In this document: one piece after another, positions 7,715-18,786 of the stretch
How the letters are laid out: every line of letters starts with the position of its first letter
Numbering within the stretch: position 1 is the stretch's first letter
DNA from: an uncultured bacterium
Lineage (GTDB): Bacteria; Fidelibacterota; Marinisomatia; Marinisomatales; Marinisomataceae
NCBI GenBank assembly: GCA_943841495.1
Contig: CALSYL010000004.1
Location: forward strand, 62,001 to 126,000
Direction of reading: 5' to 3'
Length of the DNA stretch: 64,000 nucleotides
The notes under the pieces: model-generated
The model's database searches: none
Told to the model about the DNA's origin: nothing
What the model saw: only the letters and a program-made list of their open reading frames with translations
Program-made: the position numbers and the translations under genes

Positions 7715-9655
7715 TTATATATCTATGTTTGTTGCAAATTTAGCTCTTTCAGTAATAAAAGCTCTTCTGTGTTCTACTTCCGTTCCCATTAATTCTCTAA
7801 ACCTTACATTGGTTTCTTCTTCCATAATATGATCAACTGTTACCTGCATCAGTGTTCTAGTTTCCGCATTCATCGTAGTATCCCAAAGCTGTTCAGCATT
7901 CATTTCTCCTAAACCTTTATATCTTTGAATGTCAATTTTTGCCTTATTTTCAGACTCCATTCTTTGTAAAACGTTATCTCTTTCTTCGTCTGTATAAGCA
8001 TATCTTTCTTTTTTACCTTGTTTCATTTTATATAGCGGTGGCATTGCCATATATAAAAAACCTCCCTGTACTAAACTCTTCATTTTTCTCCAAAAAAACG
8101 TCAATAAAAGGGTTCTAATATGACTACCATCTACGTCTGCGTCTGTCATTATAACTATTTTGTGATATCTTAGTTTTTCGGGGTTAAAGCTGCTTGGGTC
8201 GTCTTCATCTTCACCAAAACCACAGCCTAGGGCTGTTATAATTGATTGAATTTCATTGTTTGCTAAAAGCTTGTCTTCTCGAGCTTTTTCAGAATTAATA
8301 ACCTTTCCTCGTAGAGGTAAAATAGCTTGTGTTCTTCTGTCTCTTCCCTGTTTTGCTGTTCCTCCAGCAGAATCTCCCTCAACTAAAAACAATTCACATT
8401 GAAGGGGGTCTTTGTTGGAGCAGTCTGCTAATTTTCCGGGCAATGTTGTTGATCCAAGACCAGACTTTTTTCTAACAAGTTCTCTGGCTTTTTTTGCGGC
8501 AATTCTTGCTCTAGCTGCTTCAGCTGCTTTTTCTATAATTTTTTTTCCAACCTTTGGATTTTGTTCTAAAAACGCCTGAATTCCATCATAAACCACATTA
8601 TCAACAAGGCCCTTAACATCCCCGTTTCCGAGTTTGGTTTTTGTTTGTCCTTCAAACTGAGGTTCTTGAACTTTTACCGAAAGAACAATAGTTAATCCCT
8701 CTCTAAAGTCGTCTCCAGAAAGAGAAAATTTTTCGTTTTTTTTCGTTTTAATTAAATCATTTTTGTTTGCATAGCTGTTTAATGCTCTCGTTAGGGCAGA
8801 TCTAAAGCCTGAAAGGTGAGTACCTCCTTCAATAGTGTTAATATTATTTACAAATGAAAATATATTACTATTATAGTTAGTGCTATATCTAAGTGCTAAA
8901 TCAACAGGAACCTCTATATCTTCTCTGGACACAGAAATGACCTCATCATGAATTAAATCTTCACCTCCATCTAAATATTTTACAAAATCTGAAAGACCTC
9001 CAGGAAAACAATATTCGGTTTCTGTTTCTTCTGGTTCATTAATCATTTTAATTGATAAATTTTTGTTTAAATATGCTAATTCTTTTAGTCTTCCTTTAAT
9101 TATTTCCTCTTCAAAACCATTGTGTGAAAAAACAGAGTGGTCGGGTTTGAAGGATATTATTGTTCCTGTTTTATTACTACTACCAACTTTTTCTACGTCG
9201 GTTGTTGGTTTTCCTATAGAATATTCTTGTTTATAGTGACTTCCATCTCGATGTACTTCAGCTATTAAAGATTCTGACAAAGCATTTACCACAGAAACAC
9301 CCACCCCGTGTAAACCTCCAGAAACCTTATATGTGTTTTTATCAAATTTTCCACCAGCATGAAGAACTGTCATAACAACTTCTAGTGCCGGCCTTCCTTC
9401 TGTTTTATGAATTTCTACTGGTATTCCTCTACCATTATCTTCAATAGATATAAAACCATCATTTTTTATAGTTACAATTATTGATGTGCAAAAACCAGCT
9501 AAGGCTTCGTCTATACTATTATCAACTACTTCACTAACAAGATGGTGATAACCTCTTCTTCCAACATCCCCAATATACATGGCTGGTCTTTTTCTAACTG
9601 CCTCTAATCCTTTTAAAACAGATATTTTGTCAGCGCCATAATTGTTTTTAGTCAT
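7715..9655 (-). CDS. gyrB: DNA gyrase subunit B
   Basis: ATPase subunit of gyrase, 646 residues, the short form without the proteobacterial insertion. Motifs: GHKL ATPase [13 protein letters not shown] and DNGRGIP near residues 42-80, [13 protein letters not shown], then the TOPRIM block [28 protein letters not shown] and [11 protein letters not shown] with the metal-binding DxD. The start ATG overlaps the end of dnaN by 8 bases and the stop is one base before gyrA, so dnaN-gyrB-gyrA are coupled. Confidence 0.98.
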
Positions 9656-10754
9656 TTATCCTCACAGGCATTAATAATATTATAGTTTTTTGATCGTTTA
9701 TTTTAGGCAAGAAAAGAGTAGCAGACAAAGAGTCTTTAAAAGTAAAAATTATTTCTTCATTTAAATATTTTGAAACTGCTTCCTTTAAATAAATGGCATT
9801 AAATCCTATAGACATATCTTCACCAGAATATTCTGCTGTCTTTAAAGGGGCGTGCACTGTTTTACTTTCTGGTTGATTAACACTCTTAAAATAAACTTTA
9901 CCCTCTGATAAATTTAATGATATTTGATTTGTATTTTTATTTGTAGCTATAGAAGCGGCTTTTATATTATTTAACATTTCACTTTTACTTGCTTTTAATA
10001 AAAGAGGATTTTCTTCCGGAATAACAGCATTATAGTTAGGATATTTTTCATCAATAATTTTTGAATAAAAAACATCTTTATTATTATTTGTAAAAATATA
10101 GTTTCCACTAATAATTAAATTAGTTTCTGATTGACCTTCTAAAAAAGATCCTAAAATAGATAAAAACTTTTTAGGTATAATAAAAGAACCTAAAATACTT
10201 GTATTATTTTGTTTAGAAATTTTAACAAGTCTGTGTCCGTCTGTAGCAACAAAATCAATAGTGCCTTCTAAAAAATTAAAACATGCCCCATTTAATGCAG
10301 GTTTTGTAGGTTCATTATTAACAGCATATAATAATGAAGATATAATATCTTTTAAACTTTGTGTATCAATACAATATAAATTTTCATGTGTATTTTCTGG
10401 AATATCGGGATATTCTTGAAAAGGAACTGTGGATATATCAAATGAAATTCCTTTTTCTGATTTAATATTAATATGTGGACCAGAAACTTCAACGTCTACT
10501 CTTCCATCATCAATAACATTAATAATATCATTCATTTCGGAGGTTGGAAATAACCCCTCTCCATTGTTATTTACAGATGCATTAATTTGTGTTTTAATAC
10601 CGACTTCTAAATCGGTTGAATGTAAAGTAACTCCTGCGGCCGAAGAAGAAATGTAAGTATAATTCACTAGGGGATTTTGAGATTTTAATTGTGTTGTTTT
10701 AGTTAATTTTGAAAATGCCTTTTGTAATTCTTTTTTTGTGGTTGAAATGTTCAT
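9648..10754 (-). CDS. dnaN: DNA polymerase III beta subunit (sliding clamp)
   Basis: Ring-shaped clamp that holds the replicative polymerase on DNA. 368 residues, three clamp repeats, with VATDGHRL in the middle domain and the conserved C-terminal MPVRIND (E. coli MPMRL). ATG start at 10754 with GAAGG about 7 bases upstream. First gene of the minus-strand run leading to gyrB and gyrA; unlike the classical arrangement it is not next to dnaA, which lies 6.7 kb away on the other strand. Confidence 0.96.
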   Translation of the reverse strand: MNISTTKKELQKAFSKLTKTTQLKSQNPLVNYTYISSSAAGVTLHSTDLEVGIKTQINASVNNNGEGLFPTSEMNDIINVIDDGRVDVEVSGPHINIKSEKGISFDISTVPFQEYPDIPENTHENLYCIDTQSLKDIISSLLYAVNNEPTKPALNGACFNFLEGTIDFVATDGHRLVKISKQNNTSILGSFIIPKKFLSILGSFLEGQSETNLIISGNYIFTNNNKDVFYSKIIDEKYPNYNAVIPEENPLLLKASKSEMLNNIKAASIATNKNTNQISLNLSEGKVYFKSVNQPESKTVHAPLKTAEYSGEDMSIGFNAIYLKEAVSKYLNEEIIFTFKDSLSATLFLPKINDQKTIILLMPVRIND

Positions 10755-10934
10755 AATTAACCTTCAATATTAAAATAATAATGGTTTCAGTACAAGCTTT
10801 AAGTACCCTATATATTTATTAAATATTTATATATAAAAAACTATTAATAATATTATAAGAGTTTATATGTGGAAAACTAATATAAATTTAAATTTTGTCG
10901 AGATAAAAATATTAAAATTTTATAAAAAAAATAG

Positions 10935-10964
10935 GTTAATAATTGGTTAATAAAATGTTAATAA
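10935..10964 (+). repeat. three GTTAATAA repeats at 11-bp spacing
   Basis: GTTAATAA occurs at 10935-10942, 10946-10953 and 10957-10964, start to start exactly 11 bp, so about one helical turn apart. It lies 24 bp from the DnaA-box pair. The same octamer occurs at 17424-17431, two bases before the DnaA box ahead of dnaA. Could be an unwinding element or weak DnaA-ATP sites; this role is inference. Confidence 0.6.
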
Positions 10965-10988
10965 AATAGAGAAAATAAAAAATATAAT

Positions 10989-11010
10989 TTATCCACCTAT
11001 TTGTGGATAA
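10989..11010. promoter_or_regulatory. inverted pair of DnaA boxes
   Basis: TTATCCACC and TGTGGATAA face each other with a 4-base gap; the shared arms TTATCCAC/GTGGATAA make an 8-bp palindrome. Consensus DnaA box is TTATCCACA. The pair overlaps the stop codon of the frame-corrected surA gene. Confidence 0.6.
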
Positions 11011-11357
11011 GTAAGTGGATTTCTTTTTATATAAAATTTACTTTTAACTTCAGATATCCAACTGTTATACCAATCAGCCTTTTTTTTATTTAAGGCCATA
11101 TCTTTTAAGTCTAACCAGTTGTTTTCTAGGGTTGGAGGTCCGCCCATTTTAATTTCCTGTACCCATATTAAATGATAACCAAAACTAGTAAGGATAGGAT
11201 TACTTACTGTTTTTACATTAATATCTTTAATAGATTTTTTTTAATTCTGGAACTTGATAATATTCTAAATCAATCATTCCTAACAATCCGCCTCCAGGTC
11301 CACTAGTTTTGTCGTCTGAAAAATCTTGTGCAGCACTAAATTGTCAAAGAATATTCA
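10989..11357 (-). pseudogene. surA: SurA-like isomerase, C-terminal part in shifted frames
   Basis: Too broken to form a long frame, but conceptual translation recovers the rest of a second parvulin domain. One frame (about 11250-11340) reads FSAAQDFSDDKTSGPGGGLLG and continues to VPELKK; after a run of eight A (minus strand, about 11236-11243) the next frame reads KSIKDINVKTVSNPILTSFGYHLIWVQEI and runs to a TAA at 10989-10991. At least two shifts separate these pieces from the 11358-12302 frame. With them the protein would be about 437 residues, the normal SurA length with two parvulin domains. Sequencing error is more likely than decay because the sequence is otherwise well conserved. Confidence 0.7.
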
Positions 11358-12302
11358 TTATTTATTAATTATATTTGATTTTTCATTAATTAGATTTGCT
11401 TTTTCGTAAGTATTTTTTTTATCAGCCTCTGTAGTTTCATTTCTAATTAAAATATGCCTAGCTAAAACCTTTTCTCCAGATCTTTCTAAAACCTCTATTA
11501 AGTGATAACCATATTGGGTTTTTATAGGATCTGTTATTTTATTTTTTTCTACAGTGAATACAACTTTTTCAAATTCATCAACAAAAACCCCTCTTGAAAC
11601 ATATCCTAAATTTCCACCCTCATTTTTAGATCCTGGGTCAGTTGAATATTTTTTTGCAGCTTCACCAAAATCTAAACCATTAAGAATTTCTTTTTTAATG
11701 TTTAATGTTTTTTCAAAAGCCTTATTTTGAGATTCTTCAGACGGTTTTATTTCTAATAAAATATGATGAGTTTTATAAAGAGTTGGAAATGAAGGTATAC
11801 TGTCTTTATATGACATATAAAAATCTATAATATCACCTCTAGAAACACTTATTGATGAGGTAAGAGAAGAAGTATATTTTTCCGCCAACAACTTTCCCCT
11901 CATATCGTCCCTATATGATCTTTTAAAATCAGATAGTTTTTTACCCAAAGCCTTTTCCGCCTGTTCTTTTCCGCCTGTTTGAGAAATAATGTTTTCGATT
12001 TGTTGATTAAGAGCCTTATCTATATCTTTATCTAAAATTTCAACAGAGTCCTGTTCTGCCATTTCAATAATTAATAATTGTTCAACCATGCTTTCTCTAG
12101 AGTCTTCTAATAGTTTTTTATAAATGACAGGATTAGTATTTGGATTTAAATTTTGTTGTGCTGCAACAGCGTTTGCAGCTAAAACTACATCACTCATTAA
12201 AACTATTTTATTTTCAACTACAGAGGCAACCCTATCAAGCAGAACTTCTTCTTGAGAAAAAACAAAACCGGTAAACATTAATATGTATATAAAATTTTTC
12301 AT
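11358..12302 (-). CDS. surA: SurA-like periplasmic peptidyl-prolyl isomerase / chaperone (N-terminal part)
   Basis: Periplasmic chaperone for outer-membrane proteins. Signal peptide at residues 1-16 (FIYILMFTGFVFS), SurA N-domain to about 155, first parvulin domain about 160-270 (THHILLEIK ... GGNLGYVSRGVFVDEFEKVVF ... QYGYHLIEV), then the start of a second parvulin domain (ARHILIRNE) which is cut by a stop at 314. The remainder lies in other frames downstream (10989-11357). Its ATG overlaps the mnmG stop (ATGA), and a parS-type palindrome lies 5 bases upstream, where the ribosome site should be. It would serve the TonB receptor and PorV-type proteins encoded here. Confidence 0.85.
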   Translation of the reverse strand: MKNFIYILMFTGFVFSQEEVLLDRVASVVENKIVLMSDVVLAANAVAAQQNLNPNTNPVIYKKLLEDSRESMVEQLLIIEMAEQDSVEILDKDIDKALNQQIENIISQTGGKEQAEKALGKKLSDFKRSYRDDMRGKLLAEKYTSSLTSSISVSRGDIIDFYMSYKDSIPSFPTLYKTHHILLEIKPSEESQNKAFEKTLNIKKEILNGLDFGEAAKKYSTDPGSKNEGGNLGYVSRGVFVDEFEKVVFTVEKNKITDPIKTQYGYHLIEVLERSGEKVLARHILIRNETTEADKKNTYEKANLINEKSNIINK

Positions 12303-17291: not shown

Positions 17292-17423
17292 AATTATATA
17301 TTTGTCGAAATATAGTCCAATTAAACTATTTGTAAAACAAATAAAACAAAGATTAAAAGACAAAAAAGGCTATGCTTCAAACTAAAAAGAGCGTAAAGTT
17401 ATAAAATATAGATAAAAAAAAAT

Positions 17424-17445
17424 GTTAATAAGATGTGGATAACTA
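17424..17445 (+). promoter_or_regulatory. DnaA box next to the dnaA start codon, with GTTAATAA motif
   Basis: TGTGGATAA (17434-17442), a perfect DnaA box on the complementary strand, ends three bases before the dnaA ATG, and the octamer GTTAATAA (17424-17431) that is repeated in the candidate origin is just upstream. No Shine-Dalgarno sequence is visible here, so DnaA bound at this site would cover the translation start region. Autoregulation is inference from known dnaA genes. Confidence 0.6.
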
Positions 17446-18786
17446 ATGGACTATAAAAATTTTTGGTTAATTGTAGCAGAAGATTTAAAAAAAACACTAC
17501 CAGACCACGCATATGAGGCCTGGATTGAAACCCTCTCACCTGTTGGGGTAACGAACGATATATTTATTTTAGAGGCACCAAACCAGTTCGCATACGACTG
17601 GATTATAAATAACTATCAAGATATAATACTTTCTTCTCTTAAGGAGCAGGACGAAAAACTACAATTAAAAATTTCAATTGCACCACAGTCAGAGCAAAGC
17701 ATTTCAGCCACAGACCTTGACTCTCAAGAGCCTACAAAGCAAAGCAATCCGGGCAGAAGAAACAATATAAACCCAAATAACATCTTTCAATCTTTTATAG
17801 AGGGCCCAAATAATATTTTTGCAAAAAATGCTGCACACAGAGTGGCAACTACCCCAGGAAGCGCAGACTTTAACCCGCTTATTATTTATGGGGGCGTTGG
17901 GCTAGGCAAAACACACCTTTTGCACTCTATTGCAAACGAGCTAATAGCGGGAAAAAAACAACTTAATGTTGTTTTGGCATCATCTGAAAAGTTTACAAAC
18001 GACTTTATCGCAAGCATTCAGGAAAACAGATCTCTTGACTTTTCTAAGGTTTATAGAAAGGCAGACGTTTTGTTAATCGATGACATACAATTTTTTCAAG
18101 GAAAAGAGCAAACACAAGAACAGTTTTTCCACACCTTTAATGATTTATATACGGCGGGAAAGCAAATTGTAATGACAGCCGATAGATATCCGGGAGAAAT
18201 GGTTGGTTTGCAAGACAGGCTTTTATCAAGATTTGAGTCCGGCCTTCACGCAGACATACAGCCACCAGACTTTGAAACAAGGGTTGCAATACTCTCTACT
18301 AAGGCCAAGCAAAATAATATGGAAATTGGAGGAGAGCACCTCGAAAAAATTGCTTCACACGTGAGAACCAATATAAGAGACCTAGAAAGTTGTATAACAA
18401 AAATATTTGCGCACGCAACCCTTTCTGGAGACAGAATAAATGAGGCCCTGGTTGAGTCAATTATAAGAGAGAGGTTGGGAGATCAAGGGTATGGCCAGGC
18501 AAACATGCAAGATGTTGTGAGTGGGGTTTGTAGTATATTTTCCGTTTCGCAAGAAGAAATAGTGGGACAGTCTAGAAGAAAAAATATTGCACAGGCGAGA
18601 CAGGTTGCAGCATATTTAGCAAGAGAGGTTTTAGACATGCCGTTGAGCGCAATAGGCGTTCACCTGGGAGGAAGAGACCATACAACAATAATGCACGCAC
18701 ACAAAAAGGTTGCGGAACTATTAAAAAAAGACAATAAATTTAAAAGAAGAGTTGATATAATTTATAATGAACTAAACCTTAACTAA
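17446..18786 (+). CDS. dnaA: chromosomal replication initiator protein DnaA
   Basis: AAA+ initiator that binds DnaA boxes and opens the origin. 446 residues: domain I at 1-80, a low-complexity linker rich in S, Q and N, Walker A GGVGLGKTH at 149-157, Walker B VLLIDDIQFF, sensor region ending SRFESGLHADIQPP, and the DNA-binding signature GGRDHTTIMHAHKKV near the C-terminus. Divergent from rpmH; ssb follows 10 bases downstream. The neighbouring GTTAATAA and DnaA box suggest autoregulation. Confidence 0.98.
   Translation: MDYKNFWLIVAEDLKKTLPDHAYEAWIETLSPVGVTNDIFILEAPNQFAYDWIINNYQDIILSSLKEQDEKLQLKISIAPQSEQSISATDLDSQEPTKQSNPGRRNNINPNNIFQSFIEGPNNIFAKNAAHRVATTPGSADFNPLIIYGGVGLGKTHLLHSIANELIAGKKQLNVVLASSEKFTNDFIASIQENRSLDFSKVYRKADVLLIDDIQFFQGKEQTQEQFFHTFNDLYTAGKQIVMTADRYPGEMVGLQDRLLSRFESGLHADIQPPDFETRVAILSTKAKQNNMEIGGEHLEKIASHVRTNIRDLESCITKIFAHATLSGDRINEALVESIIRERLGDQGYGQANMQDVVSGVCSIFSVSQEEIVGQSRRKNIAQARQVAAYLAREVLDMPLSAIGVHLGGRDHTTIMHAHKKVAELLKKDNKFKRRVDIIYNELNLN

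Follow-up and report, generated by a model that had tools for sequence, protein, structure and literature searches.

Locus and gene context

The window, that is, the whole 64-kb stretch of DNA analysed here (G000:C4:62001-126000), belongs to an assembly of 0.96 Mb (958,662 bases). Its best-matching dnaN loci are found in single-cell and metagenome genomes of Candidatus Marinimicrobia (SAR406), an uncultured marine phylum. The genes for thymidylate synthase, DHFR, an M16 peptidase, gyrA, gyrB and dnaN, all on the minus strand, lead up to a gap, beyond which lie a surA-like peptidyl-prolyl isomerase, mnmG, mnmE and yidC, also on the minus strand, and then dnaA and ssb on the plus strand. The content of A+T in the gap (10755-11017) is 84.0%, compared with 63.7% for the whole window, in agreement with the initial annotation, which described the gap as very AT-rich. 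The order dnaN-gap-surA is kept within the genus and in other families, where most of the corresponding gaps contain many DnaA boxes, pointing mostly the same way. The features of the locus are listed below.

9648-10754, minus strand: dnaN (TIGR00663, 200 bits)
10755-11017, no strand assigned: predicted oriC, the 263-bp gap from dnaN to surA, containing DnaA boxes, an AT-rich unwinding region and trios (assigned from A+T content, box cluster, skew flip and gene order)
10842-10856, plus strand: DnaA-trios TAT-TAA-TAA-TAT-TAT (T-A-N, five times), 3' end towards the box; conserved in 16 relatives
10857-10867, plus strand: spacer of 11 bp separating the trios from the box; it does not vary in length and has G or C at position -7 in every case
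10868-10876, minus strand: unwinding-proximal DnaA box TTTTCCACA (TGTGGAAAA on the plus strand); TGTGGATAA or TGTTGATAA in many relatives
10934-10942, minus strand: array site 1, predicted weak DnaA box (GGTTAATAA on the plus strand); exact box TGTGGATAA here in L067
10945-10953, minus strand: array site 2, predicted weak DnaA box (GGTTAATAA on the plus strand); TGTGGAAGA here in L064, TGTTGATAA in L023
10956-10964, minus strand: array site 3, predicted weak DnaA box (TGTTAATAA on the plus strand); TGTTGATAA here in L061 and L063; the distance of this slot from the surA-end box (-46) is conserved
10989-10997, plus strand: left half of the inverted pair, TTATCCACC; overlaps the surA stop codon in relatives
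11002-11010, minus strand: right half of the inverted pair, exact DnaA box TTATCCACA
11002-12302, minus strand: surA-like peptidyl-prolyl isomerase, frame broken in the window assembly
17423-17442, minus strand: tandem at the dnaA promoter and start, consisting of a weak box, 2 bp and an exact box (TGTTAATAA-GA-TGTGGATAA on the plus strand), 3 bp before the dnaA ATG
17446-18786, plus strand: dnaA (446 aa; TIGR00362, 479 bits; box-reading signature GGRDHTT kept in the protein)

The relatives used for comparison are 16 distinct members of the genus, read outward from the dnaN start; L071, a duplicate of L024, was left out of the statistics. The genome assemblies compared are incomplete. One locus titled as a Flavobacteriaceae MAG (L072) has a dnaN 91% identical to that of the window, together with the same gap, and is probably a Marinimicrobia bin that was mislabelled or contaminated.

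Trios and boxes at the ends of the gap

The section of the gap beside dnaN contains five T-A-N trios, a spacer and a DnaA box, and this combination, with the spacer fixed at 11 bp, is found in 16 of 16 relatives. Going outwards from the box, the five trios have A as their middle base in 16, 16, 16, 14 and 16 of the 16 relatives and T as their first base in 16, 16, 15, 12 and 13; their third base is variable. The spacer has this length even in relatives with DnaN identities as low as about 65%. In the published DnaA-trio rule, three or more 3'-NAN-5' trios lie within 16 bp of a DnaA box, with a peak of spacer lengths at 10-13 bp (PMC8287927), in which the 11-bp spacer falls; the trio pattern next to a DnaA box is also described in PMC6669920. 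With its five trios at this distance, the gap is predicted to contain a basal unwinding system of textbook type, like that of Bacillus subtilis and other bacteria, where at least three NAN trios have their 3' end towards a DnaA box (PMC6669920, PMC8287927). It differs from the systems described elsewhere in that TAG trios are rare, and absent in the window genome, because the third trio base is mostly A or T, and in that the spacer is GC-richer only in part.

At the surA end of the gap, the sequence TTATCCACC-TATT-TGTGGATAA spans positions 10989-11010. This is the inverted DnaA-box pair noted in the initial annotation; its presence and its position are correct, except that the left box carries one mismatch. 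The halves are 4 bp apart. The right half is exact in 16 of 16 relatives, where it is located inside the last surA codons (..YPQ..), so that its conservation has two possible causes and is not purely attributable to DnaA. In eight loci of other families (L026, L030, L031, L032, L034, L035, L036 and L038), the central part of the gap, upstream of dnaN, holds two DnaA boxes at a distance of exactly 21 bp; this spacing was not seen in the genus of the window.

In the window, the 3' part of the surA-like gene (11002-11357) is out of frame, and the open reading frame of 314 aa has stops beyond it. The corresponding gene in a second genome, G019, is a single long open reading frame of about 433 codons. 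The broken frame reflects either a pseudogene or assembly indels, and it may be an assembly error.

Strand asymmetry and the position of the origin

A cluster of DnaA boxes together with an AT-rich region near dnaA, dnaN and gyrB is one of the features by which an oriC is recognized, and both are present in the gap. In a genome-wide ranking of clusters of exact plus near DnaA boxes, the gap is the top one in the window genome (G000) and joint top in G019. In G019 a second box cluster (C1:266506) lies over a gene's coding sequence; a counterpart was not seen in the window.

The asymmetry between T and A was calculated at fourfold-degenerate sites, which are under weak coding constraint. On the plus strand this silent-site skew is about +0.27 to the left of the gap and -0.27 to the right, regardless of the direction of the genes. 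When two genomes were scanned with arms of 20 kb, the largest flips were located at C4:70500 in G000 (0.54) and at C1:224000 in G019 (0.50), both no more than about 3 kb from the gap; the next-best flips were 0.25 and 0.17, respectively. Six further genomes also show the flip at most 3 kb away from the gap, so that the sign change of strand asymmetry at the gap extends to eight genomes.

A minimum of cumulative GC skew at the site, a usual though not a defining property of an oriC, was not found at the gap. The initial annotation had named a skew minimum elsewhere as a result that would speak against an origin here, and formally this is what was observed: the minimum lies at C4:97118 in G000 (about 35117 in the window) and at C1 250883 in G019, and it is 24-26 kb from the dnaN-surA gap in all eight genomes tested, including six besides these two. 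The origin could therefore be placed at about 35.1 kb of the window, between purA and the next gene, with the dnaN gap being a mere DnaA-regulated promoter. This seems very improbable. The minimum coincides with a 34-bp intergenic space at which a run of minus-strand genes switches to the plus strand, and the silent-site skew falls there to about zero without changing its sign, whereas it flips at the gap. The GC-skew minimum is thus a poor criterion in this genome. Furthermore, no cluster of exact DnaA boxes was found at the minimum, and the weak boxes nearby are not kept in G019. The assignment of the dnaN-surA gap as the chromosomal oriC is strongly supported, and it is very probably correct.

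The strong silent T/A asymmetry (about +/-0.27) is limited to about 30 kb to the left and 25 kb to the right of oriC, with a sharp drop at +25 kb. This zone corresponds to about 40-97 kb of C4 in G000 (1-35 kb of the window plus about 20 kb before it) and is similar in seven relatives. The silent GC content is also raised inside it in G000 and G019. Recent shuffling does not account for this pattern, since the genes keep their order both within the zone and past its limits.

The octamer array

The octamer GTTAATAA occurs on the plus strand at 10935, 10946 and 10957, in exact steps of 11 bp, and the array (10935-10964) is separated by 24 bp from the start of the inverted pair at 10989. This confirms the three exact octamers, their spacing and their distance from the pair as first described. 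In the 934 kb of the assembly that were scanned, which is all but three small contigs (about 25 kb), the octamer has 134 copies on both strands, from which the expected number is 0.0096 for exact 11-bp pairs and about 7e-7 for triples. Two overlapping exact pairs, equal to one triple, were observed, and none elsewhere in the sequence scanned. The whole window contains 14 octamers, compared with a mean of 6.25 in shuffled sequences.

Together with the preceding base, the octamer reads (T/G)GTTAATAA, the reverse complement of TTATTAAC(A/C), which differs from the DnaA box TTATCCACA by two or three mismatches; the binding of DnaA to the 9-mers of the window array is for this reason a prediction from sequence. 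The period of 11 bp corresponds to boxes of 9 bp with linkers of 2 bp, and a 2-bp linker is a standard spacing of the DnaA oligomer. In the 16 relatives taken together, the highest-scoring set of three DnaA-like 9-mers spaced by 11 bp, in tandem, in the same direction and with 2-bp linkers as in a low-affinity array, exceeds shuffled sequences with z=18.5, compared with at most 5.9 for other spacings, these z-values being overstated since the relatives are not independent samples. The summed score against TGTGGATAA is 307 at spacing 11 (shuffles 223.5 +/- 4.5) and at most 251 at spacings 9, 10 and 12-16. After the surA-end box itself, the most DnaA-like positions in the 16 relatives are the three slots located at -46, -57 and -68 from it. 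In the most divergent members of the genus (L024 and L025) the array fades and site 3 alone is clear.

It is important to distinguish the slots from the letters which fill them. The initial annotation proposed a distinct, lineage-specific initiation element and looked to conservation of the octamer among relatives. The DnaA-box slots and their spacing are indeed kept in the 16 relatives, but the literal octamer varies, and the exact triple occurs only in the window genome among the genomes compared. The slots of relatives contain TGTGGATAA, TGTTGATAA or TGTGGAAGA, and other families of the order have TGTGGAAAA or TGTGGATAA, with closer matches to the box in the gap (TGTTAATAT-TGTTGGTAA-TGTGGAAAA in L034 and TGTGGACAA-TGTAGTTAA-TGTGGATAA in L035). 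Because relatives and other families hold better boxes in the slots or the gap, the exact repeat of the window represents one form of a weak DnaA-box array, and the separate element is not supported, the octamer being the core of a degenerate DnaA box. In this genus, GTTAATAA appears to be the form taken by the low-affinity box.

Two other explanations of the regular octamers have to be considered. They could be AT-rich unwinding DNA which makes no specific protein contact, their regularity being due to a recent tandem duplication; the restriction of the exact triple to the window genome and the very AT-rich surroundings would fit. However, the spacing, the DnaA-like positions and the register of the array (in 11 of 17 sequences it lies 37 bp from the end box) persist despite linker letters that differ between genomes, and this explanation is very improbable. 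Direct half-sites 11 bp apart of the form TTAA-N7-TTAA suit response regulators of the OmpR/PhoB/CtrA type, one of which could control initiation here, and the window array contains two overlapping matches to this form. It is, however, missing in 11 of the 16 relatives, whose slots keep DnaA-like 9-mers, and in the window it is not commoner than other spacings. CtrA is alphaproteobacterial, while the window genome is from SAR406. With conservation and taxonomy both against them, tandem CtrA/OmpR half-sites were dropped as an explanation and are to be regarded as extremely unlikely.

The box tandem before dnaA

The octamer was also said to lie beside the DnaA box in front of dnaA. It is present there at 17424-17431, in the sequence TGTTAATAA-GA-TGTGGATAA-CTA-ATG with the dnaA start at 17446, and the association is conserved across 11 genomes as a TGTTAATAA-NN-TGTGGATAA tandem located 2-3 bp before the start. 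The weak box is TGTTAATAA in ten of the 11 and TGTTAACAA in one; the linker varies in its letters and is constant in length. Among 11-bp tandem pairs, this one ranks first in G000 as well as in G019. The pair of a weak and a strong box probably serves DnaA autoregulation.

It could also be proposed that TTATTAACA is a dedicated second type of DnaA box in the genus, for example one bound by ATP-DnaA only, which forms a fixed weak-plus-strong module in oriC and on the dnaA start. We regard this as doubtful; if true, one code would set both the timing of initiation and the supply of DnaA.

Proposed mechanism and comparison with known origins

The sequence, spacing, conservation, skew flip and gene order described above allow us to propose how DnaA might bind, assemble and unwind the DNA. 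It is highly probable that the gap is an oriC with strong boxes, an array of weak boxes filled by a DnaA oligomer, and melting driven by the trios. ATP-DnaA would occupy the strong boxes at 10868 and 11002, the latter with its inverted partner at 10989, and would then spread to the weak boxes at 10934, 10945 and 10956, the 2-bp linkers allowing head-to-tail contact of adjacent molecules. The oligomer and the box at 10868 would load DnaA onto the trios at 10842-10856, and the AT-rich DNA beside dnaN would melt, leading to helicase loading. The candidate origin of the initial annotation thus stands as a locus which is very probably oriC with the octamers as part of it, the octamers being predicted weak DnaA boxes and not an element of their own.

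The weak DnaA boxes of E. coli have a 2-bp spacing (PMC6070618). The array of the window resembles the low-affinity arrays of E. coli oriC in having 9-mers of the same direction with at least two mismatches and 2-bp linkers, located between stronger boxes (PMC6070618, PMC4451416), but it has three sites, a single direction and the preferred letters TGTTAATAA. DnaA of Thermotoga maritima binds best to direct boxes 2 bp apart and inverted boxes 4 bp apart (PMC10316083). Its oriC likewise has direct boxes spaced by 2 bp, an inverted pair spaced by 4 bp and trios by the first box (PMC10316083), although the box set and the gene context are different, and in the relatives the inverted pair reaches into the end of surA.

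In the literature searched, no description of a Marinimicrobia replication origin was found. That the locus is an oriC of known type, in a lineage whose origin was not described in that literature, is well supported. The gap provides a concrete candidate oriC comprising the array, the inverted pair and the trios, and it extends the basal unwinding system and the grammar of weak boxes with 2-bp linkers to another deep lineage. Judged by the GC-skew minimum alone, this origin would be misplaced by about 25 kb, an error of consequence when growth rates are estimated from metagenome coverage.
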